DNA of 40,873 nt from Candidatus Cloacimonadota bacterium (lineage in GTDB: Bacteria > Cloacimonadota > Cloacimonadia > Cloacimonadales > Cloacimonadaceae). Location of the stretch: contig JAQVIX010000012.1 of assembly GCA_028695495.1 (NCBI GenBank), positions 1-40,873 of the forward strand. Reading direction: 5' to 3'. Within the stretch, counting starts at the first letter, position 1; each line of letters opens with the position of its first letter. Positions 13,063 to 40,873 of this stretch are shown one piece after another. Made by a program: the position numbers and the translations under genes. Under the pieces are notes generated by a model. The model was not told the DNA's origin and did not search any database. It was given only the letters and a program-made list of their open reading frames with translations.

Positions 13063-13160
13063 CTTTCAAATATGGTGGGCAGCCATCAATTTTATTGGAT
13101 GCAATTATTTCCCGAAATGAGGTTATTCTGCCTGTCTTGTCCCGTCAGGGACAGTGGTTT

Positions 13161-13253
13161 AGGTAGCCCAGGGTGTGCTTGCTGAAAACGAGCTTGCGAG
13201 TTTAGGCAAGATCACCCTGGGTAATGGTAGCGTGGTAATGTATGTTGTTTTAT
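13161..13253 (+). repeat. Dispersed repeat, 3' module copy ending in a palindrome
   Basis: Begins AGGTAGCCCAGGGTGTGCTTGC and runs through GGCAAGATCACCCTGGGTAATGG to TTTTATCC. The outer GCCCAGGGTG / CACCCTGGG pair is perfectly complementary. The palindrome at 13,254 follows without a gap. Confidence 0.75.
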
Positions 13254-13324
13254 CCCCCGCCCCTCCATCTTCTTTATGTCCAAAATCCGCGGATTTTGGA
13301 CATAAAGAAGATGGAGGGCGGGGG
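13254..13324. repeat. Long perfect palindrome, centre CCGCGG
   Basis: The arms are perfectly complementary over 29 bp each side with no loop (13,261-13,318; centre between 13,289 and 13,290). One unpaired C follows, then six more pairs out to 13,254 and 13,324. The inner core AAATCCGCGGATTT is shared with the palindrome at 40,797, while the outer arms differ. Confidence 0.95.
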
Positions 13325-13455
13325 TTTATTTTCGTTATTGTTATGTTCCACAAATGATATCTGAAATTCCGGGGTTGTTCCGAAATGCCAAAACATGCAC
13401 TCCGAGGGGAATTTTGTAAGAGCGAAAGCATGGTGTGCCCCTCATGCAAAAAAAA

Positions 13456-13526
13456 CCATTCCCCCTTGTAATTAAGGGCACAAAACCCAACGGGTCTTTT
13501 GTGCCCTTAATTACAAGGGGGAATGG
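13456..13526. repeat. Long inverted repeat with 30-bp perfect arms
   Basis: Arms 13,456-13,485 and 13,497-13,526 are perfectly complementary over 30 bp around the 11-base centre CCCAACGGGTC. The outer end abuts the end of an inverted copy of the dispersed 3' module at 13,527, the same relation seen for the palindromes at 13,254 and 40,797. Confidence 0.95.
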
Positions 13527-13627
13527 GGGATAAAAGATATTTATAAAACATACCCGCCACCCAGGGTGATCGTGCCCAAAACTCGCAAGCTCATTTTGTG
13601 GCACTAAGGCCCTGGGCTAGCTAAACC
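13527..13627 (-). repeat. Dispersed repeat, 3' module, inverted copy
   Basis: On the minus strand it reads TTTAGCTAGCCCAGGGCC, then CTTGCGAGTTTTGGGC, CACCCTGGGTGGC and TTTTATCC. Downstream on the plus strand (13,628-13,680) follows CACTGTCCCTGACGGGACAAGAC and TGCTTGAATTCGAAGCC, which also recur after the other copies. Confidence 0.75.
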
Positions 13628-13792
13628 ACTGTCCCTGACGGGACAAGACCTTTGTTCTGCTTGAATTCGAAGCCATCTTAGGCTGCATTTTCTCTGTATT
13701 AGCTCATTGTTTTTTTTTACCCAGCAATGAAAATAAACATTAAAAAGGTGACTACACTCATGTGGATACTATGCTCTTTTATATCGGAATAA

Positions 13793-14314
13793 TCACTCTA
13801 TCAAAACGAAAGCAGCAAGAACCTACAAAAGGAACTTGAACAAGTAAGTGGGCAAGCTCATAAAACAGTGGACATGCCACCCATTCAAGATGCTGTAAAC
13901 ATAAGAGATAGCGATGGCAGTGGTCAAGTAAGTGGTGAAACATCGGAATTAGATGACAATTTAGATAGTATATATATTGATAATGAAAGAGATAAGGCAG
14001 ATAGTGGTCAAGTAAGTGAGCAAGTAAGTGAGCAAGTAAGTGAGCAAGTAAATAAATTGAAGCCTGAAGATCTCGCAGATATTCAGGTATTGATTATCTT
14101 AAACTCTCTTAATCCTATCAGCATGAATGAGCTTAAACATAAGTTAAACTGGGGAAGCAAATTCTATTTGTATGCTAAATATACGCGTCCCCTCCTGGAA
14201 AGCGGCATATTGCTTATGAGCTTTCCCGATACGCCCCGGCATCGTAATCAAAAATATTACCTCAGCGAATATTGGATAGAGCTTTATCACAAACTGCAAG
14301 ATGTCTTGAATTGA
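13793..14314 (+). pseudogene. C-terminal remnant of an AlbA_2-type ATP-binding gene
   Basis: The open frame has no ATG until well inside; a GTG at 13,868 is the first plausible start and an in-frame stop lies at 13,790-13,792. The product contains QVSGQ and tandem SEQV units (three 12-base repeats CAAGTAAGTGAG from 14,009), then a winged-helix-like end. That end matches the C-terminus of the AlbA_2 protein at 19,425-21,254 in pattern: I.IL....SM.EL, PLL..GI.LM..PD.P.H..QKY.LS.Y. The AlbA_2 and ATPase domains are absent, so this is most likely the tail of a second, mostly deleted gene of the same family. An expressed small HTH protein from the GTG cannot be excluded, but no clear ribosome site is seen. 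Confidence 0.65.
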
Positions 14315-14332: not shown

Positions 14333-14755
14333 AGCTCTTATTCAAACATGGTGGGTAAGCCCCTAATGACCTATGGAGCAAGCATTTTCCCTGAAAACGT
14401 GGAAACACAAACAATCTCGAGGCTGTCCAGTAATACGAAAAACAACATAACAACAAGAAATGTCCACCCCTAAAATGATAGGGGTTCAATGCCTTGAACC
14501 CGCCGAAAAATACACGCAACAAGTAATCATTACGGACTCAATATCAATTTATTACGGTGCGCGCTTTGCGCACGCTTTGTTAAAAGCGGGCGCAAAGCAT
14601 TGCGCCCCTACATTCTCGTTTCGTTAGATATCGTGCTTGCGAGTGTTTGAGCAAGATAAACCCTGGGTAATGGATGCGTTTTGATGAATGTCTTTTTATC
14701 CTCCGCCCCCTCTGCCACTGATAGGGCAAGACCTCTGTTCAGCTTGAATACGAAG
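14333..14755 (+). repeat. Dispersed repeat, full copy, left flank of the BREX-like island
   Basis: Starts at AGCTCTTATTCAAACATGG and is nearly identical to 27,138-27,515 over the first 225 bases or so. It carries nested hairpins: GGGGTTCAATGCCTTGAACCC, GTGCGCGCTTTGCGCAC and GCGGGCGCAAAGCATTGCGCCC. The 3' part (GCTTGCGAGTGTTTGAGCAAG, AACCCTGGGTAATGG, TTTTATCC) is the module found at 12,851, 13,161 and 40,695. Beyond about 14,710 similarity fades but CTTGAATACGAAGC is still shared. Confidence 0.9.
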
Positions 14756-15191: not shown

Positions 15192-15668
15192 ATGACTGAT
15201 ATTTTGGAAAAGTTCAAAACTGCCTTGCAATCGACTGGAGATCAATACCATCGTTTGATTATTCTGGTTAATTGCGAAGAACGCGGTGAACAAGAGATTG
15301 TCAGGTTGTTGAAAGAAGATCGTAATGCTGAGTCACTAAACCTCAACCTTGAGCTTGCCACGAGATTGTTAGAATACAGCATAAAGCAAAGACCACTTAA
15401 AATAACTGAGATTATGGAAGGGCTTGTAGGCGGCACACCATTTCCTGCACTGTTGGATCATATCGACATCCTATTTGAACCATCACTTAAGACCGATACC
15501 TTGTCACTACTACTCTCCTTATCAAAAAGCAAGACTATCGTCGTTTTTTGGTGGGGCGCTTTAAAAGAAAACAAGCTTTACTACGCTGAGCCCGGATATC
15601 CGGAATATAAATCATACCCAGTACACGATTTCGTGGCTATCGATGCACAGCCACAAGAAAACTTGTAA
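15192..15668 (+). CDS. brxF: BrxF-like protein of BREX type 3, P-loop degenerate
   Basis: 158 residues, the usual size of BrxF. Features that fit the family as I know it: an N-terminal strand RLIILV, then LNLNLELATRLLE (50-61), ALLDHIDILFEPSLKTD (86-102, Walker B-like), TIVVFWWG and, near the end, LYYAEPGYPEYKSYP (129-143). BrxF is described as a small P-loop protein, but here the expected GxxxxGK[ST] loop at about 26-35 reads VNCEERGEQE and lacks the glycines and lysine. ATP binding by this copy is therefore doubtful. AGAAGG precedes the ATG, and brxC follows 17 bp later. In BREX-3 operons brxF lies directly upstream of brxC, as here. Confidence 0.75.
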   Translation: MTDILEKFKTALQSTGDQYHRLIILVNCEERGEQEIVRLLKEDRNAESLNLNLELATRLLEYSIKQRPLKITEIMEGLVGGTPFPALLDHIDILFEPSLKTDTLSLLLSLSKSKTIVVFWWGALKENKLYYAEPGYPEYKSYPVHDFVAIDAQPQENL

Positions 15669-15685
15669 ATAGAAGGAGAATTCTA

Positions 15686-18600
15686 ATGTTTTACAAAGAC
15701 CTTATCCAATATGAGCCCATTGAAAGCCTGGTTCAATTGAAAGATGCTGCCATTACTCAGAAAGCCGCCAACCTGGTAAGTACTTATGTAATCTCTGAGG
15801 AAATGGCTGAACGCATTTCCAATCTAATCATAACTCAGTTGCAGTTCGATTCCCCAACTGACAATAAAGGTCTCTTGATTGTGGGTAATTATGGAACCGG
15901 TAAATCTCACTTACTCTCGGTGATCTCAGCCATCTGTGGTGATGCTTCACTTGTTGCGCACCTTACAGATGCACAAGTGAAAGAAAAAGCAAAAATTATA
16001 GCCGGTAGATTCAAGGTGGTTATTCGTACAGAACTTGGTGCCACCACTATGCCGCTGAGAGATATTTTGGTAAGGGAACTCGAAGAGAACCTGAAGAGGG
16101 ATGGTATAGATTATTCCTTCCCGCCTATGGATAAGAGTTATTCCATCAAAAAAGACCTTGAAGACATGATGCAGGCATTTCATGAGGTGTTCCCAAACGA
16201 TGGCTTGATCCTGGTTGTGGATGAGCTTTTAGATTACCTGAGAAGTAGAACGGACCAGGACTTGGTAATAGATCTCAATTTCTTAAGAGAAATAGGGGAA
16301 GCCTGCAAAGACCTGAGATTCAGATTCATCGCCGGTATTCAGGAAGCGATATTCGATAGCCCGAAATTCATATTTGTGGCAGAGAGCCTGCGCAGGGTAA
16401 AGGATAGATTTGAGCAGGTGCGCATTGCCAGGAGAGATCTCAAGTATGTGGTTGCCAATCGTCTGTTAAAAAAAAGCGCTGATCAGACTCAGAAAATCAG
16501 AGAATACCTTGAGCCTTACACTCGATACTATGATGATTTAACCCAGCGTATGGAAGAATTTGTAAATCTTTTTCCCATACATCCCAACTACATCGATACC
16601 TTTGAAAGTATCACCCTGATTGAAAAACGCGAAGTTCTGAAAACCATCTCTTTGAATATAAAGCAAATCATCGACAAAGAGGTTCCGCAAGATACTCCGG
16701 GGATATTGGCTTATGACAGCTATTGGAAGATGTTGAGCGACAATCCCAGCAACCGCTCCAATCCCGATATTAAGGAGGTAATAGAGGTTAATTCAGTTTT
16801 GGTTTCCAAGATCGAACAGGCCTTTACCAAACCCATATACAAAGCTATTGCCATCAGAATCGTTAATGGCCTTTCCATACATAGATTAACCACTGTTGAT
16901 ATGAGTGTAACCATTGGTGCAAACCCCCAAGAATTAAAAAACAACCTCTTCCTTTTTGATGCCAATGCCGCCAGTATGGGAGGTGATGAACCGGATAAAG
17001 ACCTGACCACATTGGTGGAGACTGTGTTGCGGGAGATTGTAATCACCGTTAGTGGTCAGTTTATCTCTTCCAACCCAAACAACGGACAATTTTATCTGGA
17101 TCTAAAGAAAGTTGATGATTTTGACGCCATCATAGCCAAGAAAAAAGACACTCTGGGAGATGCAAGCCTCAATACCTACTACAATGAAGCCCTGAAACGC
17201 GTTTTGGAGAGGATGGATATTACCCCGCATGTAACGAACTACAATATCTGGCAGTATGAGATAAACTGGCGTGAACGCAATGCCCCCCGCAGCGGATATC
17301 TCTTTTTTGGCTCTCCCAATGAACGTTCTACCGCAGTACCACAAAGGGATTATTATATCTATTTCCTCAGACCCTATGATAAAACACCTGTTAAGGATCA
17401 GAAACTCGATGATGAGGTGTTTATATACTTGAACATTAGAGATGAGGAATTTGATGAAGTATTGGGGCTATTTGCAGCATCTCACGAGTTATCCCTCACA
17501 GCATCGGGAAATGCCAAAAACATCTATCAACAGAAATTTGAACAATACCTGCGTAAAGTAGTCTTATGGTTGCAGAGTAATATCTGGGATGCCTTCGATG
17601 TAGTCTATCAGGGAAAACGGCAATCCTTGGAAAACTGGGCAAAGGGCAAGAATATTAGAGAGATCTCTGGATTAGCGCAGAATGAGACTGCAAACTTCAG
17701 AGATATTATCAATGCCATTGCCTCTATCTGCCTGGCTGAACACTTTGAAAATCAGGCACCAAAATATCCCAAGTTTTCAGTCTTGATTACCGGATACAAT
17801 AGAAAGCAGAATATTACCGAAGCCTTACGCTTTATCTCAGGTGGTAATAAAACAAAGCAAGCGTTGGCTATTCTTGATGCCTTACAGCTTCTTGATGGGG
17901 ACAGGATCACCACATCCCAATCACCCATCGCCCAATACATCAGCAACAAGCTGACTGCAAAGGGGAAGGGACAGGTTCTAAATCGGGAAGAACTCATAAC
18001 CAGGGTGAATGGTTTGGACTATCTTGATCCCAGCGGTTTCAGACTGGAACCGGAATGGGTGGTTGTGGTTTTGGTAGCAATGGTCTATTCGGGCGATATC
18101 GACCTCACTGTAGTGGGGAATAAATTTGATGCCACCCGGCTCCAATATCTTGGTGCCACAGACCTGGCTACTTTGGTGGATTTTAAACACATTGAGCTTC
18201 CCAAGGATTGGAATTTACAATCCATAAAATCACTATTTGAGCTTGTGGATCTTCCCTCCGGTTTAGCCCAAAGCATTGCTCAGGGCAGCGATGACCAGGT
18301 GAGGGCACTGCAAGACGCCATTTCAAAATCGATCACCCGCATCGTTTTCGCAATTAACCATCTCAGCGCTGGATTGATATTCTGGGGGTTGGATCTGAAA
18401 GCTTCACTCCAACTGGAAAACGCCCAACAAAACCTTGGCAAAGCCAAGGAGTTCTTAGAGTCTCTCGCGGTCTTCAATACAGCCGCCAAACTTAAGAACT
18501 TTAATGTGCCAGTGGCAGATATTGAATCTCAACGCGTTTCTTTGAACCTTGTTCAAACCATCAAGGCTGCTAAAGACTTTATCGACAACTTAAATCCCCT

Positions 18601-19423
18601 CATAAACTGGCTGTCCACTGCTGAAAAACTGCTCCCCACCGAAAATCCCTGGCAGGATGGATTTGGAAAGACTAAAGAGATTGTACTAAAACAAGTCAAG
18701 GAACTAAAGGCAGAAGAAATTAAGGCTCTCACCGGAAAGATTAGTTATGAACTGCAAAAACTCAAGAAGGACTTTATTGAACACTATGTGAATTTGCATA
18801 GCAAGCAACGCCTTAATAGGCAAGACGATAAAACCAAGGCTGAACTCTCCAATGATTTTAGGATACATAGCCTGCTTAAACTTGGTGAAATCGACATCAT
18901 GCCCAAGCAGCAAGTAAACGACATTCTGGAGAAACTGGCAATTCTGAGAACATGTTTTAACCTTACAGAACAGAACTTGCAGGCAGACCCCATTTGCCCT
19001 CATTGCAAATTCAACGCTGCGGTGGAAACTGGCACCGTGTCTGCAAGCCATATATTGAGGCAGATTGACCAAATGCTGGATATGACCATTGACAACTGGA
19101 CCGAGATGCTGCTCCAGAATCTACAGGATGAACACACTCAAGAATCAATATCTTTGCTGAGCGATAAGGACATAGCTATCCTTGATGAGTTTATCCAGAG
19201 CAAAAAGCTCCCTGATAAACTTGATGATAGCTTTGTGAGAATCCTGAAAGAAGTATTGGCTGGACTCATAAAAGTAACCATAAATATGGATGAAATCCGT
19301 AGAGTGATCAGCAAGGCTGGAGGGTCTATCTCTCCTATTGATTTAAAACGTGTCTTAGATCAGTATATTGATTCACTCACTCAAGGAAAGAATCCTCAAC
19401 GGGTTAGGATTGTACTGGAGTAA
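15686..19423 (+). CDS. brxC: BrxC/PglY-like P-loop ATPase (DUF6079 type)
   Basis: 1,245 residues, in the range of BREX BrxC/PglY proteins. Walker A is GNYGTGKS (67-74) and Walker B is LILVVDE (174-180), followed by a sensor-like region (FRFIAGIQEAIFDS). The middle and C-terminal parts are long, mostly helical and without recognised catalytic motifs; a single CPHC pair lies near residue 1,108. BrxC is an essential large ATPase of BREX, thought to form multimers with the methyltransferase and PglZ. A GAAGGAG ribosome site supports the start. By eye the gene uses AGA/AGG for Arg more often than the flanking housekeeping genes, which prefer CGC, consistent with horizontal transfer. Confidence 0.88.
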   Translation: MFYKDLIQYEPIESLVQLKDAAITQKAANLVSTYVISEEMAERISNLIITQLQFDSPTDNKGLLIVGNYGTGKSHLLSVISAICGDASLVAHLTDAQVKEKAKIIAGRFKVVIRTELGATTMPLRDILVRELEENLKRDGIDYSFPPMDKSYSIKKDLEDMMQAFHEVFPNDGLILVVDELLDYLRSRTDQDLVIDLNFLREIGEACKDLRFRFIAGIQEAIFDSPKFIFVAESLRRVKDRFEQVRIARRDLKYVVANRLLKKSADQTQKIREYLEPYTRYYDDLTQRMEEFVNLFPIHPNYIDTFESITLIEKREVLKTISLNIKQIIDKEVPQDTPGILAYDSYWKMLSDNPSNRSNPDIKEVIEVNSVLVSKIEQAFTKPIYKAIAIRIVNGLSIHRLTTVDMSVTIGANPQELKNNLFLFDANAASMGGDEPDKDLTTLVETVLREIVITVSGQFISSNPNNGQFYLDLKKVDDFDAIIAKKKDTLGDASLNTYYNEALKRVLERMDITPHVTNYNIWQYEINWRERNAPRSGYLFFGSPNERSTAVPQRDYYIYFLRPYDKTPVKDQKLDDEVFIYLNIRDEEFDEVLGLFAASHELSLTASGNAKNIYQQKFEQYLRKVVLWLQSNIWDAFDVVYQGKRQSLENWAKGKNIREISGLAQNETANFRDIINAIASICLAEHFENQAPKYPKFSVLITGYNRKQNITEALRFISGGNKTKQALAILDALQLLDGDRITTSQSPIAQYISNKLTAKGKGQVLNREELITRVNGLDYLDPSGFRLEPEWVVVVLVAMVYSGDIDLTVVGNKFDATRLQYLGATDLATLVDFKHIELPKDWNLQSIKSLFELVDLPSGLAQSIAQGSDDQVRALQDAISKSITRIVFAINHLSAGLIFWGLDLKASLQLENAQQNLGKAKEFLESLAVFNTAAKLKNFNVPVADIESQRVSLNLVQTIKAAKDFIDNLNPLINWLSTAEKLLPTENPWQDGFGKTKEIVLKQVKELKAEEIKALTGKISYELQKLKKDFIEHYVNLHSKQRLNRQDDKTKAELSNDFRIHSLLKLGEIDIMPKQQVNDILEKLAILRTCFNLTEQNLQADPICPHCKFNAAVETGTVSASHILRQIDQMLDMTIDNWTEMLLQNLQDEHTQESISLLSDKDIAILDEFIQSKKLPDKLDDSFVRILKEVLAGLIKVTINMDEIRRVISKAGGSISPIDLKRVLDQYIDSLTQGKNPQRVRIVLE

Positions 19424-19424
19424 C

Positions 19425-21254
19425 ATGATGACAAAAGATAAATTGTTAAAAGCCATAAAAAATCCAGAATGGACTAATGTCGAGTTTAAACTGTGCCGCA
19501 ATGGTGTGGCTGAAGATGCCTACAAAACCGTATCAGCCTTTTCCAATACCAGCGGCGGATACATTATCTTCGGAATCAGAGAAAATGCCAATGGAACTGA
19601 AAGAGAAATAGTGGGCGTGGAAAATGTTGATAGAGTTCAAAATGACTTCCTTAGCTGTTTACGCAGCAGTTCCAAGCTTAGCAGAGTGATATATCCCAAA
19701 GCGATACTACACGAGTTGGATGGAAAACATATACTGGTATTCTATATCCCAGAGGCTAATCGCGAAGAAAAACCCATCTACTTGGATCGAAGAATAGACC
19801 AAGCATATATCCGAAGGGGTGGTGGCGATGAATTGTGCACAGAAACAGAACTAAGGAGCTTCATAAGGGACGCCAGTGTCATACCTTTCGACAGAGTTTT
19901 GGAGCAAGGAATTATCCCCGATAAATTCATTAACACGAAAACCTTAAAGTGGTATAGAAAACTTTATGATGACAGAACTGGAAACAGATATGCCTCGTTT
20001 GACGACATTGACTTTCTTTTAGAACTGGGTCTAATGACAGAAAATGAAGACAAGGTTGTCCCCACCAAAGCAGCCATCTTGCTGTTTGGAAAAGAGCGTT
20101 ATGTAAGGCAGATATTACCCAGACCAATTGTGGATTATCAAAGAATAGATACCTTTGAAGAAAATTGGGACCCAGATAAAAGATGGCATGATCGACTGGT
20201 GATAGAAAGTAACCTCTTTGATGCTTGGAGAGTACTTTATGATAAATACTCCCTTATTGCGGATGTTCCTTTTTCACTTGATGAGACAACCATGCTGCGT
20301 AAAGATGACTCTTTAGAATACAGGTCCTTCCGGGAAGCTGCTGTGAATCTACTGATTCATCAAGACTATGGCGACATTTCCAGAAAAGCCGAGATTAAGA
20401 TATTTAGGGACAAGACCGTATTCTGGAATCCAGGATCTGCATATTCCAGCGTTGAAGAGTTACTAGAATCACGCCACCATCCGACTCGCAATCCCTTGAT
20501 AGTAAGAATCTTTCGCTTGATTGGTCTTTGTGAAGAAGCAGGAACTGGGATCAGGACCATCATGGAAGATTGCCGTAAGCTGGGTCTCTTTCCCGCTCAA
20601 ATCATCAATGATAAATCCGGCTTCAGCTTTTCACTCACTATCCTCAAACAACAGATAATATCCGAACCTTTCAAAGAGCTAATAGCAAGGCTGGATATTA
20701 AGACTAATGCTGATGAAGATGCCATCTTTTCATATCTGGTCGCCTACAAAAATCTGAGCCTGCCCATTGCAAAAGCGATAACAGGAAAGTCTAGCGATGT
20801 TACACTGGCAGCCATGGCTAAGCTTGAGGCTGCAGGACTGACCAAGTCAAGCGACCATAAGCAAGCTTGGTCACTGAGTGAACACATTGAACAACAGATA
20901 ATTAAGACAGATAGTGCCCAAGCTACTGACCAAGCTACTGGGCAAGTAACTGGGCAAGCTACTGGGCAAGCTCATGAGAACAAAAAGCAAGAGATTGCTT
21001 GCCTGATAGAAGAACTAACACAGGTACAAATTGGGATAATTCGAATCTGTTCTGAATCTGTAAGCATGAAAGAAATAATGCAAAACCAATCAAAAATAAA
21101 TCGGGACTATTTGAGAGTTAGACACCTAAATCCGCTGCTTAGACAAGGCATAGTGCTAATGAAATATCCGGATAAACCCAAGCATCCCATGCAAAAGTAT
21201 CATCTTAGCGACTATGGCAGTATAGTACTACAAACCATTCAAGGAGAAAGCTGA
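19425..21254 (+). CDS. AlbA_2 (Schlafen-type) ATP-binding protein inside the BREX-like operon
   Basis: 609 residues from the ATG at 19,425 (a second ATG at 19,428 is equally possible). GGAG at 19,417-19,420 is the ribosome site, so a longer frame reaching into brxC is not used. Domains in order: AlbA_2 (about 14-130: EWTNVEFKLC, AFSNTSGGYIIFGI); a RecG-C/GHKL-like ATPase domain (about 295-400: FREAAVNLLIHQDY with Glu304, Asn308 and His312, later RNPLIVRIF and EEAGTGI); then two winged-helix regions separated by QATDQATGQVTGQATGQA (499-516), coded by tandem 12-base units. Such proteins are frequent accessory genes in defence loci; some AlbA_2 proteins are nucleases or DNA-binding regulators. 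Its stop overlaps the pglX start (TGATG). It could be an effector, a regulator, or a replacement for the missing helicase. Confidence 0.85.
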   Translation: MMTKDKLLKAIKNPEWTNVEFKLCRNGVAEDAYKTVSAFSNTSGGYIIFGIRENANGTEREIVGVENVDRVQNDFLSCLRSSSKLSRVIYPKAILHELDGKHILVFYIPEANREEKPIYLDRRIDQAYIRRGGGDELCTETELRSFIRDASVIPFDRVLEQGIIPDKFINTKTLKWYRKLYDDRTGNRYASFDDIDFLLELGLMTENEDKVVPTKAAILLFGKERYVRQILPRPIVDYQRIDTFEENWDPDKRWHDRLVIESNLFDAWRVLYDKYSLIADVPFSLDETTMLRKDDSLEYRSFREAAVNLLIHQDYGDISRKAEIKIFRDKTVFWNPGSAYSSVEELLESRHHPTRNPLIVRIFRLIGLCEEAGTGIRTIMEDCRKLGLFPAQIINDKSGFSFSLTILKQQIISEPFKELIARLDIKTNADEDAIFSYLVAYKNLSLPIAKAITGKSSDVTLAAMAKLEAAGLTKSSDHKQAWSLSEHIEQQIIKTDSAQATDQATGQVTGQATGQAHENKKQEIACLIEELTQVQIGIIRICSESVSMKEIMQNQSKINRDYLRVRHLNPLLRQGIVLMKYPDKPKHPMQKYHLSDYGSIVLQTIQGES

Positions 21255-24103
21255 TGTCTCAACAAATATTCATAGACCTGGATGCGAGGTCAAAAAGCCC
21301 CGTCACTTGCCTGGGACAAGTATTTGCCAGCGAAGATGTCCGCAGAGAGCATTTCAGAAAGCTCCTGCGAGAAAAACTGAAAGACCCCCAGTTCCGTAAG
21401 ATAGAAGGCTTTCCCTTCGGCGAAGATGAAGATATCATCGCCCTTAGCGATCCTCCTTATTATACCGCCTGTCCCAACCCTTGGATAAATGAATTTATCG
21501 CCGAATGGGAAAAAGAAAAGGGAAGCAGACCTGATGAATATCACCGCGAACCTTTTGCAGCAGACGTAAGCGAAGGAAAGAACGATCCCATCTACAACGC
21601 CCATTCCTACCATACCAAAGTGCCCCACAAGGCTATAATGCGTTACATCCTACACTACACTGAGCCCGGAGATATCGTCTTTGATGGCTTCTGCGGAACT
21701 GGCATGACCGGCGTGGCAGCCCAACTCTGTGGTGACAGGAAAGTAGTGGAATCCTTGGGATATATGGTGCAAGATGATGGCACCATTCTGGATGAAGATG
21801 GCAAGCCTTTTTCCAAATTGGGAGCCCGTAAAGCCATTCTCAATGACCTCTCCCCGGCAGCCACCTTCATCGCCGCCAATTACAATTCTCCCGTGGATGT
21901 CGAGGAGTTTGAACGAGAGGCAAAGCGCATCCTGGAAGAGGTAGAAGAAGAATGCGGCTGGATGTATGAGACCCTGCATACTGATGGTAAAACAATCGGT
22001 AAAATCAACTACACTGTCTGGAGCGATGTGTTTATCTGCTCCAATTGCCAGAAGGAAATCGTATTTTGGGATGTGGCAGTGGATCAAGAAGCGGGGAAAG
22101 TGCAAAGTGAATTTGCATGTAATCACTGTGGTGCCACCCTCACTAAAAAGGGATTGGAAAGACCTTTTATAACGATTTATGATAAAGGCTTTTCTGATGA
22201 TCTCTCCGTTGAAGCTCATGAAAAAAAAGGGAAAACCATTAAACAGGCTAAACAGATACCAGTATTGATCAATTACTCTTTAGGAAAGCAAAAATTCAGA
22301 AAAATACCAGACAGAAGAGACTTGGAGTTGGTTGAAAAAACAAACAGGCTTGATATTCCCTATCGATACCCTAATAATCAAATACCGAAAGGAGATAAAA
22401 CTGCCGATCCTTTTAACTATGGTATTAAAAATGTACATCATTATTATACAACAAGGAACCTCTATACGCTTTCAAAAATTAATAATATCTGCAGTTCACA
22501 TTCATTGGGATTTACTCAACAGTCTGTTAACACCACATTAACATCTAAATTGGTCAGATACAATATGGGAAATAGAGGAAACGGAATTTTGGCTGGAACA
22601 CTATATGTGGCTTCTTTGATTGCTGAAACAAATCCTTTATGGGTTTTTGCAAATAAACAAAAAGATATAGCAAGGGCTATCGGGATGCCATATTACAGTG
22701 TAATTTCAACTATATCTACTTCAAATATTTCTTCAGCCCCTAATGGCGTGCTTGACTACATCTTTACCGACCCTCCTTTTGGTAGTAATCTCATGTATTC
22801 CGAGCTTAACTTCATTTGGGAAAGTTGGTTAAGAGTGTTAACCAACAACAAGCAAGAAGCGATAGAAAACAAAGCACAACAAAAGACCTTGTTTGATTAT
22901 CAAATGATTATGACAGATTGTTTCAGAGAGTATTTTAGAGTTCTCAAGCTAGGTCGCTGGATGACAGTAGAATTTCATAACTCTAAAAACAGCGTGTGGA
23001 ATTCCATCCAAGAGGCGCTGCAGGTTGCTGGCTTTGTAATCGCCGATGTACGCACCCTTGATAAGCAATCTGGCTCTTTCAACCAAGTCAATGCCGCCTC
23101 CGCCGTCAAACAAGACCTGATCATATCCTGTTACAAACCCAATGGTGGACTTGAAGATAGGTTTGTTAAAATTTCCGATACCGAAGAAGGCGTATGGGAC
23201 TTTGTGAGAACGCATCTCAGGCAGCTACCCAAAGTTGTAATAGAAAGAGATAAAATGCAGGTTGTAGCAGAGCGGCAAAACTATCTGCTCTATGACCGCA
23301 TGGTGGCTTTTTATCTGCAACGCAATGCCTTGGTGCCCCTGTCTTCGGCAGAGTTTTACCGAGGATTGGAGGAGCATTTTCCCTCCCGGGATGGGATGTA
23401 TTTCCTGCCGGAGCAGGTGGTGGAATACGATAAAACCAAGATGAAGATTCCAGAGCTGGCACAAATGGTGATATTTATCACAGATGAGGTTTCAGCAATC
23501 CAATGGTTGCGCCAATTGCTCAAAGATAAACCCCAGACGTTCCAAGAGATTCATCCCCAATTTATGAGAGAGATAGCTGGCTGGAACAAAACAGAAAAGA
23601 GCCTTGAGCTATCACTTATCCTGGAAGAAAACTTTTTAAGATACGACGGCATTGCTGAAGTTCCCAGCCAGATTCATACATATCTTTCTACAAACTGGAA
23701 AGATCTGCGCAAGCTCCTCAAAAACGATCCAGAACTGAAAACTAAAGCCAAGGATAGGTGGTATGTGCCCGATCCTAATAAATCGGCAGACCTGGAGCAG
23801 ATGCGGGAAAAGGCTTTGCTAAAAGAATTCTGGACCTATCTGCCCAAAGATTATAGCCCCAAAAAACAGAATGACCTGCAGATAGAGATACCTGATTTGC
23901 CCAAAGCAGGCACTATGCCTTTTTCTGGAAAAAGATACAAGGTAATACGGGCAGAAGCTGTAAGGGCAGGTTTTAAGCTCTGTTGGCAAAATCGGGATTA
24001 TGAGACTATTATTCTGATGGCACAGCGCATACCCAGCAGCCTCTTAGAGGAAGACCCCAAACTGCTGATGTATTACGATCAAGCCATTACCAGGACACAG
24101 TAA
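21254..24103 (+). CDS. pglX: PglX-type (BREX-3 PglXI) adenine-specific DNA methyltransferase
   Basis: 949 residues. Motifs in order: SDPPYY at 65-70 in the stretch DPPYYTACPNPW; the SAM-binding motif DGFCGTG at 144-150; a zinc ribbon with Cys262/265 and Cys289/292; and the catalytic motif TDPPFG at 505-510 followed by YSELNFIWESWL. This is the arrangement of DUF1156-like amino-methyltransferases used as PglXI in BREX type 3, which methylate adenine in a non-palindromic site so that self is marked. A segment from about base 22,170 to 22,740 is visibly more AT-rich than the rest of the gene and probably encodes the variable target-recognition part. AAGGAG lies 7 bases before the ATG, and the start overlaps the preceding stop by one base. 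pglZ follows after only 12 bp, where brxHII would be expected. Confidence 0.88.
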   Translation: MSQQIFIDLDARSKSPVTCLGQVFASEDVRREHFRKLLREKLKDPQFRKIEGFPFGEDEDIIALSDPPYYTACPNPWINEFIAEWEKEKGSRPDEYHREPFAADVSEGKNDPIYNAHSYHTKVPHKAIMRYILHYTEPGDIVFDGFCGTGMTGVAAQLCGDRKVVESLGYMVQDDGTILDEDGKPFSKLGARKAILNDLSPAATFIAANYNSPVDVEEFEREAKRILEEVEEECGWMYETLHTDGKTIGKINYTVWSDVFICSNCQKEIVFWDVAVDQEAGKVQSEFACNHCGATLTKKGLERPFITIYDKGFSDDLSVEAHEKKGKTIKQAKQIPVLINYSLGKQKFRKIPDRRDLELVEKTNRLDIPYRYPNNQIPKGDKTADPFNYGIKNVHHYYTTRNLYTLSKINNICSSHSLGFTQQSVNTTLTSKLVRYNMGNRGNGILAGTLYVASLIAETNPLWVFANKQKDIARAIGMPYYSVISTISTSNISSAPNGVLDYIFTDPPFGSNLMYSELNFIWESWLRVLTNNKQEAIENKAQQKTLFDYQMIMTDCFREYFRVLKLGRWMTVEFHNSKNSVWNSIQEALQVAGFVIADVRTLDKQSGSFNQVNAASAVKQDLIISCYKPNGGLEDRFVKISDTEEGVWDFVRTHLRQLPKVVIERDKMQVVAERQNYLLYDRMVAFYLQRNALVPLSSAEFYRGLEEHFPSRDGMYFLPEQVVEYDKTKMKIPELAQMVIFITDEVSAIQWLRQLLKDKPQTFQEIHPQFMREIAGWNKTEKSLELSLILEENFLRYDGIAEVPSQIHTYLSTNWKDLRKLLKNDPELKTKAKDRWYVPDPNKSADLEQMREKALLKEFWTYLPKDYSPKKQNDLQIEIPDLPKAGTMPFSGKRYKVIRAEAVRAGFKLCWQNRDYETIILMAQRIPSSLLEEDPKLLMYYDQAITRTQ

Positions 24104-24115
24104 AGAGGGCTTAGG

Positions 24116-26077
24116 GTGTACAGCGATCAAGTTCCCGCAAAAGACCTATTGGTAAACGCGATTATTCAGCGATTATGCTCTATTTCGCACCAGATGGTGA
24201 TCTTGTTCGATCATGATAGTTTGGTATCCTCTACTGTTGTTTTTGAGCGAATAGCTGACAAGGGGTTTGATCTTTATGACTATACCGATAACTTGAGTTT
24301 GTACTTTTATCTGGAGAACAAAAGGCGCATGAATTTGGAGTCTGAGAATAGACGGATATTGATCAGGGTTTCCGCAGATCTGGTTAACCTTGCTCAAGTT
24401 CCTTATTCGGTATTGATGCAATCTGATGTTATTCATTTGAGGTTGGACGATTTCTTTACAGGAATTGCAGCTAAAGCAGTTAGGGAGCTTCCCAGCCAGT
24501 ATTTTGAGAAGCTGTATGAATTGTTGCAGACTCAAGCTCAAAACCTGGCTTCATATAGCGAGAGTATTGATTTTATAGCCAGGCGAATATTGGGAATTGA
24601 TACAGCGGGGATAAGCACAGAGCTGCAGTTTTGGGCGGTATTATTTAAGCTGCATTATAAAGATACAGTACTGCCTGAGTTTATTGTGAATAATCTGCTG
24701 AATGTAGGCAAAGAATTGGTGGATGGATATGATATCGACCTTGATCGGGTCTTAAAAAGCAGAGAGTATTTCTATGCTTTTCTACAAAAGGAATGGCGGC
24801 GATTTGTGGATAAATGGACATGCTCCGCGGAATATCCCAGGGTGCTGCCTTTTGATCATCCCGATCTGAAAGTATATACCGATAATTTCTTTACAGAGGG
24901 TTTGCTCCAGCGCATTACTTTAGCGACACCTGTGAAAGTAGAGACCAGCTGGATGGCTTGCGGTATAGAGCGTTCACCCCTGGATAATGTTGCTCTTATC
25001 CAAAGCCAGCTATCCCTGCTCAATTCGCAACTGCCGGGAATAGAAGACAATTATCAAGCCTGGCAGAAATATGCCAAGCATTACGCCAGACTCTTGCAAT
25101 TGCTCTATACCCAGGCGCAGATGCCGGATATCCCAGCTTTGGATCAGCTTCGTGTGGAAGCCAATAGCAGATTCAGGGATTGGGTAATAAAGCATTACGA
25201 TTCCCTTTCCAGCCTGCCAGCCACAGAACCCATTTTGGTGCATCAAATAGCCCGGAGCATGGCATACCGTCGGGCAGAGCAGGCTTCGCCCCAAACGGCG
25301 TTAATTATCTTGGACGGGATGTCTTACGATCAATGGCTGTGCATCCATTCAGAATTGGATTTATCCGGTTCTAAGGTTCAGGAATCTGCCCTATTTGCCT
25401 GGTTGCCCACTCTTACATCCATCTCCCGCCAAGCCATCTTTTGCGCACAGCTTCCTTTCTATTTTGCCAGCTCTTTAACAAATAACAGCAAGGAATCCAG
25501 CCAATGGAAACGCTTTTGGGAAGATGCCGGGCAAGATTCCAACCGAGTGCACTATCTACGGCTGGAAGGCACGGAAGCCCCAGCTATACAAATAGAAAAA
25601 GAGATCAATCTAAATAGCGCCTCGGTAATTGGCATCGTAATCAATACTATCGATAACATGCTGCATGGCATGAATCTGGGCGCTTCAGGCATGCATAGCC
25701 AAATCCGGCACTGGCTTAAGCAGGGGCATTTGGCAGCTTTGCTCAAGCTTCTGTTGGATAAGGGTTTTGAGCTTTGGCTTAGTTCGGATCATGGCAATTT
25801 GGCATGTAGCGGAATAGGCAATATTGCAGATGGTGCGTTATCCGAAACCAAGGCTGCCCGCACCCGGATCTACGCTTCGGAAGCCCTTGCTGTAGGGGCT
25901 TTGGAAAAGTCTGGCTCCTCGCTTTTGTGGACCCCAAAAGGCATACCCCCGCAATTTCATTGCCTCTTTGCTCCATATCAGGCATCGTATTTGGCAAAAG
26001 GGAAAAAGAGCATCTCCCACGGCGGCATTTCTTTGGAAGAGTTAATGGTGCCGCTTATCAAAATAAATAGGACCTAA
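24116..26077 (+). CDS. pglZ: PglZ, BREX alkaline-phosphatase-fold protein
   Basis: 653 residues with a GTG start preceded by GAGGG. The C-terminal half holds the PglZ domain: Asp400 in ALIILDGMSYDQW, Asp558-His559-Gly560 in LSSDHGN and a final SHGGISLEELMVPL, the metal-site segments of the alkaline phosphatase superfamily. The N-terminal half is helical and unclassified. PglZ is the core marker of all BREX types and binds the methyltransferase; a nuclease or phosphodiesterase activity has been reported for some members. It is separated from pglX by 12 bp and from the next gene by 3 bp, so these three are co-expressed. No key residue of the visible motifs is missing. Confidence 0.92.
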   Translation: MYSDQVPAKDLLVNAIIQRLCSISHQMVILFDHDSLVSSTVVFERIADKGFDLYDYTDNLSLYFYLENKRRMNLESENRRILIRVSADLVNLAQVPYSVLMQSDVIHLRLDDFFTGIAAKAVRELPSQYFEKLYELLQTQAQNLASYSESIDFIARRILGIDTAGISTELQFWAVLFKLHYKDTVLPEFIVNNLLNVGKELVDGYDIDLDRVLKSREYFYAFLQKEWRRFVDKWTCSAEYPRVLPFDHPDLKVYTDNFFTEGLLQRITLATPVKVETSWMACGIERSPLDNVALIQSQLSLLNSQLPGIEDNYQAWQKYAKHYARLLQLLYTQAQMPDIPALDQLRVEANSRFRDWVIKHYDSLSSLPATEPILVHQIARSMAYRRAEQASPQTALIILDGMSYDQWLCIHSELDLSGSKVQESALFAWLPTLTSISRQAIFCAQLPFYFASSLTNNSKESSQWKRFWEDAGQDSNRVHYLRLEGTEAPAIQIEKEINLNSASVIGIVINTIDNMLHGMNLGASGMHSQIRHWLKQGHLAALLKLLLDKGFELWLSSDHGNLACSGIGNIADGALSETKAARTRIYASEALAVGALEKSGSSLLWTPKGIPPQFHCLFAPYQASYLAKGKKSISHGGISLEELMVPLIKINRT

Positions 26078-26080
26078 ATA

Positions 26081-26878
26081 ATGAAAGATAAACACTTAAA
26101 TAAAATCGGCATAAAACAACTAATTCGGCTGGAATGGCTGGACCGCACACTTTCTCTGCTGCTTGCCGGTATGTCCCCGGAAGAGATTCGCCGGGATTTA
26201 AGCGACTATTTGGCAGATAAAAAACCCAGCGGCGGCATCGGAGAACGGGGGTATAAAACCTATACCTTAGCCATTGCCATCCTTTCCGCCTGGTTCGATC
26301 CTGCGATCCAGTGGCACAGCTTACGGGATAAATTGCTGGTGCAGGCGCGGCAGCTTCCCCCAGAAGAATGGATGGTATTACACTGGACTCTAATGCTTGC
26401 CGCATATCCCTTTTGGTTCAATGTAGCTATTCAAACCGGCAGAGTATGCGCCCTGCAGGAAAGGGTTACCCGCAAACAAATCTTCGACCGCCTGATAGAA
26501 CGCTATGGCGAACGCAGCACCATCTTAAGATATGCGCGCTATGTAATAAGAAGCTTCAAAGCCTGGAAGATCCTGGAAGATACCGAAACCCGTGGCTGCT
26601 ACCAAAAGGGAGCTTCCATTCCTATCAGCAATCCGCAAATCATGGGCTTGCTCTTTGAAGCCATGCTCATCTCTACCCAGGGCAACAAAGCCCCTTTGCG
26701 CAGTTTGGCTTATTCCCCCGCACTTTTCCCCTTCATCCTTGCTACTGAACGGGCGCCACAAGCCGTGGCAAGCAATCCGGCGCTGGTAGGTGAGCGCCTG
26801 GGAGATGGGGAGATGATGGTGTATTTACAAAATGATATTGATAAAGATGATTTATCAAAAAGGATTGAACACAATTAA
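26081..26878 (+). CDS. brxA: BrxA-like (DUF1819-type) protein
   Basis: 265 residues, 3 bp after pglZ. It is an all-helical protein with the order of features seen in BrxA: a first block of a leucine-rich helix plus a Ser/Asp segment (LDRTLSLLLAGMSPEEIRRDL), a central WMVLHWTLMLAAYPFWFNVA block resembling the E. coli YLLWLAVCRRYRFIADFA segment, and a winged-helix-like end (ILRYARYVIRSFKAWKILED, then GASIPISNPQIMGLL). BrxA is a small DNA-binding protein; in BREX-3 it is the last gene, as here. The protein is about 60 residues longer than typical BrxA because of a C-terminal extension (about 205-265). The match is by pattern and position, so the name is tentative. By eye its Arg codons (mostly CGC) look more host-like than those of brxC. 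Confidence 0.65.
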   Translation: MKDKHLNKIGIKQLIRLEWLDRTLSLLLAGMSPEEIRRDLSDYLADKKPSGGIGERGYKTYTLAIAILSAWFDPAIQWHSLRDKLLVQARQLPPEEWMVLHWTLMLAAYPFWFNVAIQTGRVCALQERVTRKQIFDRLIERYGERSTILRYARYVIRSFKAWKILEDTETRGCYQKGASIPISNPQIMGLLFEAMLISTQGNKAPLRSLAYSPALFPFILATERAPQAVASNPALVGERLGDGEMMVYLQNDIDKDDLSKRIEHN

Positions 26879-26887
26879 GAGGTTCGT

Positions 26888-27139
26888 TTGCAAAAAAGGA
26901 CGAAAGAACACATACTCGAAGATAAATCTAAGAATGTATTTAGAACATTATTGCCTGAGAATTGGCTATTTAGAGAAAAATCGCACGATTATGGTATTGA
27001 TGGAGAAATAGAAATATTTGATACCGACAATAAAACAACAGGTTTGATGTTTTACATTCAACTTAAAGCAACTGATTCAAAGGGAAAGAACACAATTCAT
27101 AAAATCCGAATGAAGTCGGACACTATACGTTATTTTTAG
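26888..27139 (+). pseudogene. DUF4365-like gene truncated by a repeat
   Basis: 83 residues from a TTG start at 26,888 with AGAGG upstream. The sequence HDYGIDGEIEIFD, followed by GLMFYIQLKATDS, is the start of a DUF4365 domain, a nuclease-like fold with D...E..QLK-type active-site spacing that is common in defence loci. Family members continue for at least 60-100 more residues. Here the frame ends in SDTIRYF followed by TAG, and that TAG spans the first base of the dispersed repeat copy (27,138). The rest of the domain is not found on the far side of the repeat. It is most likely a broken gene at the right edge of the island. Confidence 0.75.
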
Positions 27140-27515
27140 CTCTTATTCAAACATGGTGGGTAAGCCCCTAATGACCTATGGAGCAAGCATTTTCCCTGAA
27201 AACGTGGAAACACAAACAATCTCGAGGCTGTCCAGTAATACGAAAAACAACATAACAACAAGAAATGTCCACCCCTGAAATGTAGGGGTTCAATGCCTTG
27301 AACCCGCCGAAAAATACACGCAACAAGTAATCATTACGGACTCAATATCAATTTATTACGGTGTGCGCCCCTACATTCTCGTTTCGTTAGATATCGTGCT
27401 TGCGAGTGTTTGAGCAAGATAAACCCTGGGTATGTGATGCGTTTTTATGAAGATCTTTTTATTCTCCAGCCCCTCACGAAGCAAGATTTCTGTACTCCTT
27501 GAATACGAAGCCATT
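27138..27515 (+). repeat. Dispersed repeat, full copy, right flank of the BREX-like island
   Basis: Direct repeat of 14,333-14,755. The first 225 bases or so are nearly identical. It lacks about 41 bases carrying the GCGCACGC and GCGGGCGC hairpin of the left copy, the junction being GTGTGCGCCCCTAC. The 3' module (GAGTGTTTGAGCAAGATAAACCCTGGGT) and CTTGAATACGAAGCC are kept. Confidence 0.9.
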
Positions 27516-28145
27516 AAGGGCTTCATTTTTCCTATTTTTAGCTCATGGGTTTCTATCTCACCCACTTGGATTGAACAAGCGCCCTTTTTGTTTGTCATTT
27601 TTTTAATCGGGATATCGAGAATATCGGAAACGGCATGCCGGGCATTGGATTCAAAGTGATTGCTGATACAGAATAGAAAGCTTTTGAACTTCAAAGGGCT
27701 GTCCAAGCAAGGTGACAGGTTGCGGGCGGCAGGGCTGCGCACGTGGCGAACATAGTTTGTTGCTGGCATAATTGGCATAAAGCTAAGGGCTTTTACGCTC
27801 TCCAGTATGTGAAGTCAATGCCGCTTGTAAAAGGCGGTTACAGAACTGATAGGCGGATAAGCGTCATTAACTCCACAACTCACTCAATAATTTGTGTAAA
27901 TTAGCGTTAATTCGTGGACAATTATCATTAAACGGCAAGATGCCGTTTTTACTTTCAAGCGACAAGATGTCGCTTCCACGGCGCTTCTTCCTTGGCTCTC
28001 GCCCTCACAATGCCCTCACCTCTCCCCGTAAATTGCCGGTCGAGGCGAGGGCATTACGAGGGAGGCAAAGGGGCAAGCCAGCAAAAGTAATTGACTAAAA
28101 ATCCCCTGCCATTTATCTGGCGAAAAATATATTTGGGAGAGAAAA
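27516..28145. other. Intergenic debris
   Basis: No gene is believable. A minus-strand frame covering 27,371-27,778 runs through the repeat and is rejected. The stretch contains the paired AAGAT-loop hairpins listed separately and an ordinary GGGAG ribosome site at its right end. Confidence 0.6.
27931..27975 (+). repeat. Pair of AAGAT-loop hairpins
   Basis: AACGGC-AAGAT-GCCGTT (27,931-27,947) and AAGCGAC-AAGAT-GTCGCTT (27,957-27,975) are perfect hairpins with the same five-base loop, 9 bases apart. The same paired arrangement with different stems occurs at 40,543-40,588. Confidence 0.85.
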
Positions 28146-40515: not shown

Positions 40516-40588
40516 TTGCATCTTGCAATGTGAATAAGAATCAAACGACAAGATGTCGTTTTTACATTTCTGTGGCAAGATGCCACAG
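40516..40588 (+). repeat. AAGAT-loop hairpins, three in a row
   Basis: TTGC-ATCTT-GCAA (40,516-40,528, the loop reading AAGAT on the other strand), AAACGAC-AAGAT-GTCGTTT (40,543-40,561) and CTGTGGC-AAGAT-GCCACAG (40,570-40,588). The last two are 8 bases apart, like the pair at 27,931-27,975, but with different stems that remain perfectly paired. Confidence 0.85.
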
Positions 40589-40694
40589 CCACCTTCTGCG
40601 AAATCGGTTTTGGCAGCCCAGAGCTAAGCGCAGATTAAAACATTTCCGGATATGCCAAAACCTGCCTGTCATTCTTTCCCCGTCAGGGGATAAA

Positions 40695-40796
40695 GTTTAG
40701 GTAGCCCAGGGTGTTCGCCGCCCAAAATGAGCCTGCGATATTTTGGGCAAGATAAACCCTGGGTGATGGTTGCGTTTTGATGAATATCTTTTTATC
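40695..40796 (+). repeat. Dispersed repeat, 3' module ending in a palindrome
   Basis: Begins GTTTAGGTAGCCCAGGGTG and passes through GGGCAAGATAAACCCTGGGT and GCGTTTTGATGAATATC to TTTTATCC. The preceding CCCCGTCAGGGG resembles the CCCGTCAGGGA hairpin before the 13,161 copy. Confidence 0.8.
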
Positions 40797-40863
40797 CCCC
40801 AGCTCCCCCCTTTTTTATGCACGAAATCCGCGGATTTTGTGCATAAAAAAGGGGGAGCTGGGG
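40797..40863. repeat. Long palindrome, centre CCGCGG
   Basis: The arms are complementary over about 33 bp on each side of the centre between 40,830 and 40,831, with one G/T mismatch and one unpaired C. It has the same AATCCGCGGATT core as 13,254-13,324, but the outer arms are unrelated (AGCTCCCCCC and a T6 tract here). Confidence 0.93.
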
Positions 40864-40873
40864 TTTTATTGCA

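Follow-up and report, generated by a model that had tools for sequence, protein, structure and literature searches.

The window, a stretch of 40,873 nucleotides analysed at its full length, is contig C33 of a metagenome-assembled genome (MAG) of 2.72 Mb in 155 contigs. Its M16-type peptidase has its best database relatives in Cloacimonadota MAGs, at 67% identity. A BREX type 3-like defence island occupies positions 15192-26878 and is flanked by direct copies of a dispersed repeat (14333-14712 and 27138-27475), 145 bp of which are 99% identical. Between repeat copies, at 13868-14314, lies a small frame that looks like a gene fragment; its C-terminal domain is Fic-like, and a 12-bp tandem repeat (CAAGTAAGTGAG) precedes this domain in frame. 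The features of the window, including three long palindromes and the repeat modules beside them, are collected in Table 1.

Table 1. Features of the window, with positions counted from its first letter.
Feature	Position	Strand	Remarks
Left REP-like module, first copy	13134-13250	+	GTCCCGTCAGGGAC hairpin, TTTAGGTAG, stem CCCAGGG..CACCCTGGG, T-rich arm ending TTTTATC
First palindrome, central hairpin	13254-13324 (fold span 13255-13324)	+	Cluster C, core AAAATCCGCGGATTTT; covariance model R1 match C33:13249-13332, 86.4 bits
Spacer separating the two hairpins of a composite copy	13325-13455	.	From alignment with C130, C137 and C153
Second palindrome, central hairpin	13456-13526	-	Cluster A, TTGTAATTAAGGGCACAAAA; covariance model R1 match C33:13448-13534, 69.6 bits
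Module of second hairpin	13527-13649	-	TTTTATC end, stem ACCCAGGGTG..CCCTGGGC, GTCCCTGACGGGAC; inverted pairs I7, I20, I21
BrxF	15192-15668		In BREX type 3-like island
BrxC	15686-19423		In BREX type 3-like island
Frame with weak Argonaute-associated matches only	19368-21254		In BREX type 3-like island
PglX/methylase	21254-24103		In BREX type 3-like island
PglZ	24116-26077		In BREX type 3-like island
BrxA	26081-26878		In BREX type 3-like island
Left REP-like module, third copy	40666-40796	+	Repeat families D1, D3, D13
Third palindrome, central hairpin	40797-40863 (fold span 40806-40855)	+	Cluster I, TTTTTTATGCAC.AAATCCG, at contig end

All three palindromes are self-complementary, as the original prediction held; they form stems of 29-36 bp, and each follows one common module end, TTTTATCC, read on the minus strand for the copy at 13456. 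The arms of the first hairpin measure 35 nt and are 94% complementary, with a single 1-nt gap in the 3' arm; those of the second measure 30 nt and are 100% complementary around a loop of 11 nt; and those of the third measure 29 nt and are 97% complementary. On DNA folding, each of the three sequences forms a single hairpin; the energies are -39 kcal/mol at 13255, -37 kcal/mol at 13456 and -33 kcal/mol at 40806, and the z-scores, in the same order, are -12.5, -10.9 and -10.0. Not one of 200 shuffles was as stable. The first hairpin has near-identical copies on contigs C130, C137 and C153; the spacer that follows it is also present on C130 and C137, and on C153 similarity stops inside the spacer. 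The first and third palindromes had been described as having the same core within unrelated outer arms. The core, AATCCGCGGATT, is indeed common to both, but their arms have TTTATG..C.AAATCCG in common as well, and most of the differences lie near the stem base.

A covariance model built from 31 hairpins and run over both strands of the genome returned 129 matches, which we counted as 66 places. The palindromes had also been placed at the ends of a dispersed repeat; in most copies the hairpin is instead central, flanked by modules on its left and right. Read from the left, the element consists of a REP-like module whose last bases are TTTTATC, then the hairpin, then TTTTATT, and finally a right REP-like module that is inverted. 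The left module runs GTCCCGTCAGGGAC, TTTAGGTAG, the CCCAGGG stem and GATGAATATCTTTTTATC, and its first copy in the window has 53 matches in its own genome. The right side starts with TTTTATT; a large group of copies has TTTATCATATTGCTACATAACGCGATTGCTATCTAAAATGCCACCCC.AACGGGGTTCC there, which is a second REP-like unit, inverted. The hairpin itself has a C-rich base and a stem of 25-37 bp, of which the base CCCCAGCC and the top CAAAA are conserved. Two inverted units surround the hairpin in many copies, though not all keep both: L258, L263, L265, L266 and L273 are truncated or deleted at the hairpin, and a search with the right flank for a clean empty site without the hairpin yielded nothing but truncated or deleted copies. 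The three palindromes belong to a non-coding REP-doublet (REPIN-like) element, of which they form the central hairpins; it has spread to about 66 places in this 2.7-Mb Cloacimonadota MAG and is presumably mobile.

The hairpin model matched none of 11 congener genomes and gave a few matches in three genomes of the same family (G023, G058 and G065). The left module was absent from 49 other family genomes, that is, it occurred among 50 genomes in its own (G000) only. With congeners lacking matches and the left module confined to its own genome, the expansion is at species level. No exact match turned up in searches of GTDB and viral contigs. G023 and G058 repeat the same plan in other sequences, with inverted repeat units around a C-based hairpin and T-rich borders.

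Like REPINs, the element consists of an inverted pair of REP-like units around a poorly conserved, hairpin-forming spacer with compensatory changes, and it is dispersed and mostly extragenic (PMC3116915). It differs from REPINs in that the spacer hairpin is a perfect, C-based palindrome in its own right, 25-37 bp long, and that arms of unrelated families occur inside the same flanks; its REP-like modules are larger, and it has no assigned cognate RAYT. GTAG-tagged REPs, as described by Di Nocera et al. (2013), are units of 20-40 bp (PMC3733652). The left module resembles them in that GTAG often stands immediately 5' of the stem (GGTAGCCCAGGG..CCCTGGG), but GTAG, ATAG and CTAG are all found before the CCCAGGG stem in aligned copies, ATAG or CTAG often, and the stem with its inner hairpin exceeds 20-40 bp.

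Two frames with a Y1_Tnp domain (PF01797) are present in the genome. The one on contig C68 lies near a hairpin copy; it is a truncated IS200-type frame, seemingly interrupted by another repeat. The other, on contig C80, encodes a RAYT-like protein of 190 aa that matches NF047646 at 54.5 bits, below the cut-off of 80, and is flanked by a different repeat, which we read as GGCTGCGGCATTTTGCCGCA. Neither could be assigned to the hairpin element as its mobilizing enzyme: the C80 gene is accompanied by a different repeat of its own, and the frame on C68 is truncated. A gene of the REP-associated type, as the original prediction proposed to look for, does exist, but nothing links it to the hairpins. 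In L111, a RAYT-like gene (1459-2339) has its own tandem GGCTGCGGCATTTTGCCGCA-type repeats, and the GGCAAGATGCC palindromes of the window (family D14: 27928-27975 and 40541-40561) resemble these.

We then compared the arms within and between copies. Across 62 non-redundant hairpins, 2,030 aligned arm pairs contain 34 mismatches (1.7%), and 35 of the 62 stems are perfect, with neither mismatch nor gap. Between copies, by contrast, arm divergence amounts to 0.094 in cluster A, 0.167 in B, 0.182 in E and 0.214 in H. Had the two arms evolved independently from a perfect ancestor, differences within a copy should about equal those between copies, from which the observed values depart roughly 5-10-fold. 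Genome-wide collection of the copies, proposed at the outset, revealed massive covariation. In the alignment of 31 sequences, both sides had changed at 23 of 28 pairs, and 177 cells were changed on both sides. Shuffling gave 55 such cells, with none of 500 shuffles reaching the observed number, and sliding the partners gave 25-58; the counts are approximate, because the alignment columns of the stem base are partly uncertain. As the structure was taken from the same sequences, the slid control is somewhat biased in its favour; the mismatch count per copy is independent of the alignment. By type, the 34 mismatches comprise 12 of wobble type, 9 of A-C type and 13 others, numbers that are small but show no G-T bias. 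The middle of the arm is free in sequence and locked in pairing.

Among the four recent copies of the first hairpin (C33, C130, C137 and C153), a T-A pair has become A-T in both arms of C153; the second hairpin is kept in three of these copies, and in C137 it bears another T-A to A-T change in both arms. Such a change has no route through a wobble pair. Loops have also been inverted while the arms stayed unchanged: CCGAGGT stands against ACCTCGG in cluster A (L022 and L068 compared with L021; five positions differ), and CCAT against ATGG in cluster G (L030 compared with L043; four positions differ). Both calls compare copies whose arms agree and whose flanks fix the orientation. Candidate inversions in clusters B and F were downgraded from strong, as only two mirrored positions differ and one independent point mutation on either side of a palindromic core could suffice. 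One in a second hairpin family (CCCTCGCAATGCCC..) was set aside, since its flanks do not fix the orientation.

Other repeats of the genome have related features. In L038 (1847-1937), a repeat of the GGGTTCAAGGCATTGAACCC type is now a palindrome with arms of about 44 bp, a loop of 3 nt and one mismatch; its outer parts differ, again as though one arm had been copied from the other. A second dispersed hairpin family (CCCTCGCAATGCCCTCGCCTCTACC..GGTAGAGGCGAGGGCATTGCGAGGG) has covarying stems and varied loops (L107, 1012-1094; L116, 168-228; L054, 980-1042; and others).

The original prediction left two possibilities side by side, a selected structure or arms copied one from the other. The details (1.7% within copies against 9-21% between them, changes in both arms, two loop inversions and the lack of wobble bias) lean towards copying, while selection stays a live alternative. 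We consider it somewhat probable that arm-to-arm copying through template switching in replication keeps the arms matched, and that exchange of hairpins between copies adds variety. Under this scheme, as the pattern suggests, a stalled or folded strand would switch template onto the opposite arm during replication, whereby a mutation in one arm would be either erased or written into both, and the loop would occasionally be inverted. The mosaic copies further suggest that recombination between copies at the hairpin could swap arms among elements. Hairpin formation in single-stranded DNA may in addition be needed for mobility, as has been proposed for REPINs. Copying is favoured because homogenized arms together with inverted spacers are what the literature describes as the mark of template switching in inverted repeats. 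In yeast, template switching homogenizes the arms and inverts the spacers (PMC8604942); it has been proposed to maintain the hairpins of RNA genes (PMC8794818), and quasipalindrome mutations in E. coli are a related case (PMC7202029). Here, likewise, arms are homogenized within a copy and divergent between copies, and spacers are inverted between the same arms, convincingly in clusters A and G and weakly in B and F. The published cases are single loci or RNA genes, whereas the present one is a dispersed bacterial repeat with dozens of copies in one genome. Congeners carry no orthologous copies from which single events could be placed on a tree for each locus.

Selection for the hairpin could by itself weed out mismatched copies, the structure being needed as single-stranded DNA for transposition or as a protein site, and independent mutations being compensated in turn. 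Bertels and Rainey (2011) suggested this for REPIN spacers, in which they found compensatory changes to be common and took the capacity to form a hairpin as the critical feature (PMC3116915). The conserved stem base and top, and the central hairpin in the distant elements of G023 and G058, fit such a requirement. A stem of 35 bp should nevertheless tolerate several mismatches, yet more than half of the stems are perfect; T-A to A-T changes have reached both arms among recent copies, and the two loop inversions are hard to account for. Slow compensatory fixation also predicts that arms diverge less than flanks, and the reverse is seen. In 18 copies that share a right flank, median divergence is 0.06 on the right (60 nt) and 0.16 on the left, against a mean of 0.45 and a median of 0.46 in the middle of the arms. 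Because flanks may be constrained or homogenized, these values do not compare rates cleanly, but they do show that turnover affects both arms of a complementary pair together. Selection alone is thus an unlikely explanation, although copying and selection for the hairpin may act together.

The arm differences within the same flanks may instead reflect mostly exchange between elements rather than fast change. In the fullest form of this explanation, variety would come mainly from recombination or gene conversion between copies, perhaps once SbcCD has broken the hairpin; the hairpin would move as one unit, and arm-to-arm copying would be of minor weight. An SbcD gene is present in the genome, nearly the same flanks surround unrelated arms, and some copies, such as L258, L263, L265 and L266, are broken off or deleted at the hairpin. 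Two copies are mosaic: L041 joins the left side and hairpin of cluster A to another right flank, and L019 has mismatches of the A-A and C-C kinds, which would be expected from a fusion of the 5' half of one arm type with the 3' half of another. But exchange by itself makes no new complementary arm pairs, and stepwise substitutions in both arms are still seen inside one cluster, so that we regard it as rather unlikely to be the main process. It is quite improbable that the element propagates by hairpin-primed fold-back synthesis, with some enzyme making a new second arm in each round; perfect arms would then be a product of the replication cycle rather than of chance template switching.

A role of the repeats as transcription terminators or regulatory RNA hairpins is very improbable. 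The long, GC-based stem would suit it, as would GGGGTTTTATT, which follows the stem on one strand, but a stem of this kind far exceeds the usual length of a terminator. Among 41 hairpins with open frames on both sides, 20 lie between tandem, 11 between divergent and 10 between convergent frames, usually hundreds of bases away; intrinsic terminators were rejected, with neither a preferred orientation nor a concentration at the 3' ends of genes. Mismatches lack the wobble bias of an RNA, and an Rfam search of the window matched one tRNA only.

That the palindromes are inverted-read chimeras or other assembly artefacts is hardly credible: the MAG is in 155 contigs and the window stops just past one palindrome, but nearly all 66 places lie inside contigs with differing flanks, and independent genomes (G023 and G058) show the same architecture. 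The last 127 bases of the window (40747-40873) are identical to the end of contig C73; exactly 127 shared end bases suggest an assembly k of 127, longer than the hairpin, so that single k-mers span the hairpins. C33 breaks in a repeat, so that it and C73 may be adjacent or may have a repeat copy in common.

In kind, the finding has a precedent, as compensatory changes were reported for REPIN spacers in 2011; what is new is the length, perfection and variety of the palindromes, their flipped loops and the contrast with the flanks. Compensatory changes are standard evidence for a hairpin under selection. Here, in dozens of copies within one bacterial genome, covariation is strong, and copying of DNA from arm to arm explains at least part of it better. 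Should this be confirmed, the element would provide a natural system in which to study template switching in bacteria and a mechanical reason for the covariation of REPIN spacers; it would also caution against treating covariation in repeats as proving that an RNA or DNA structure has a function.
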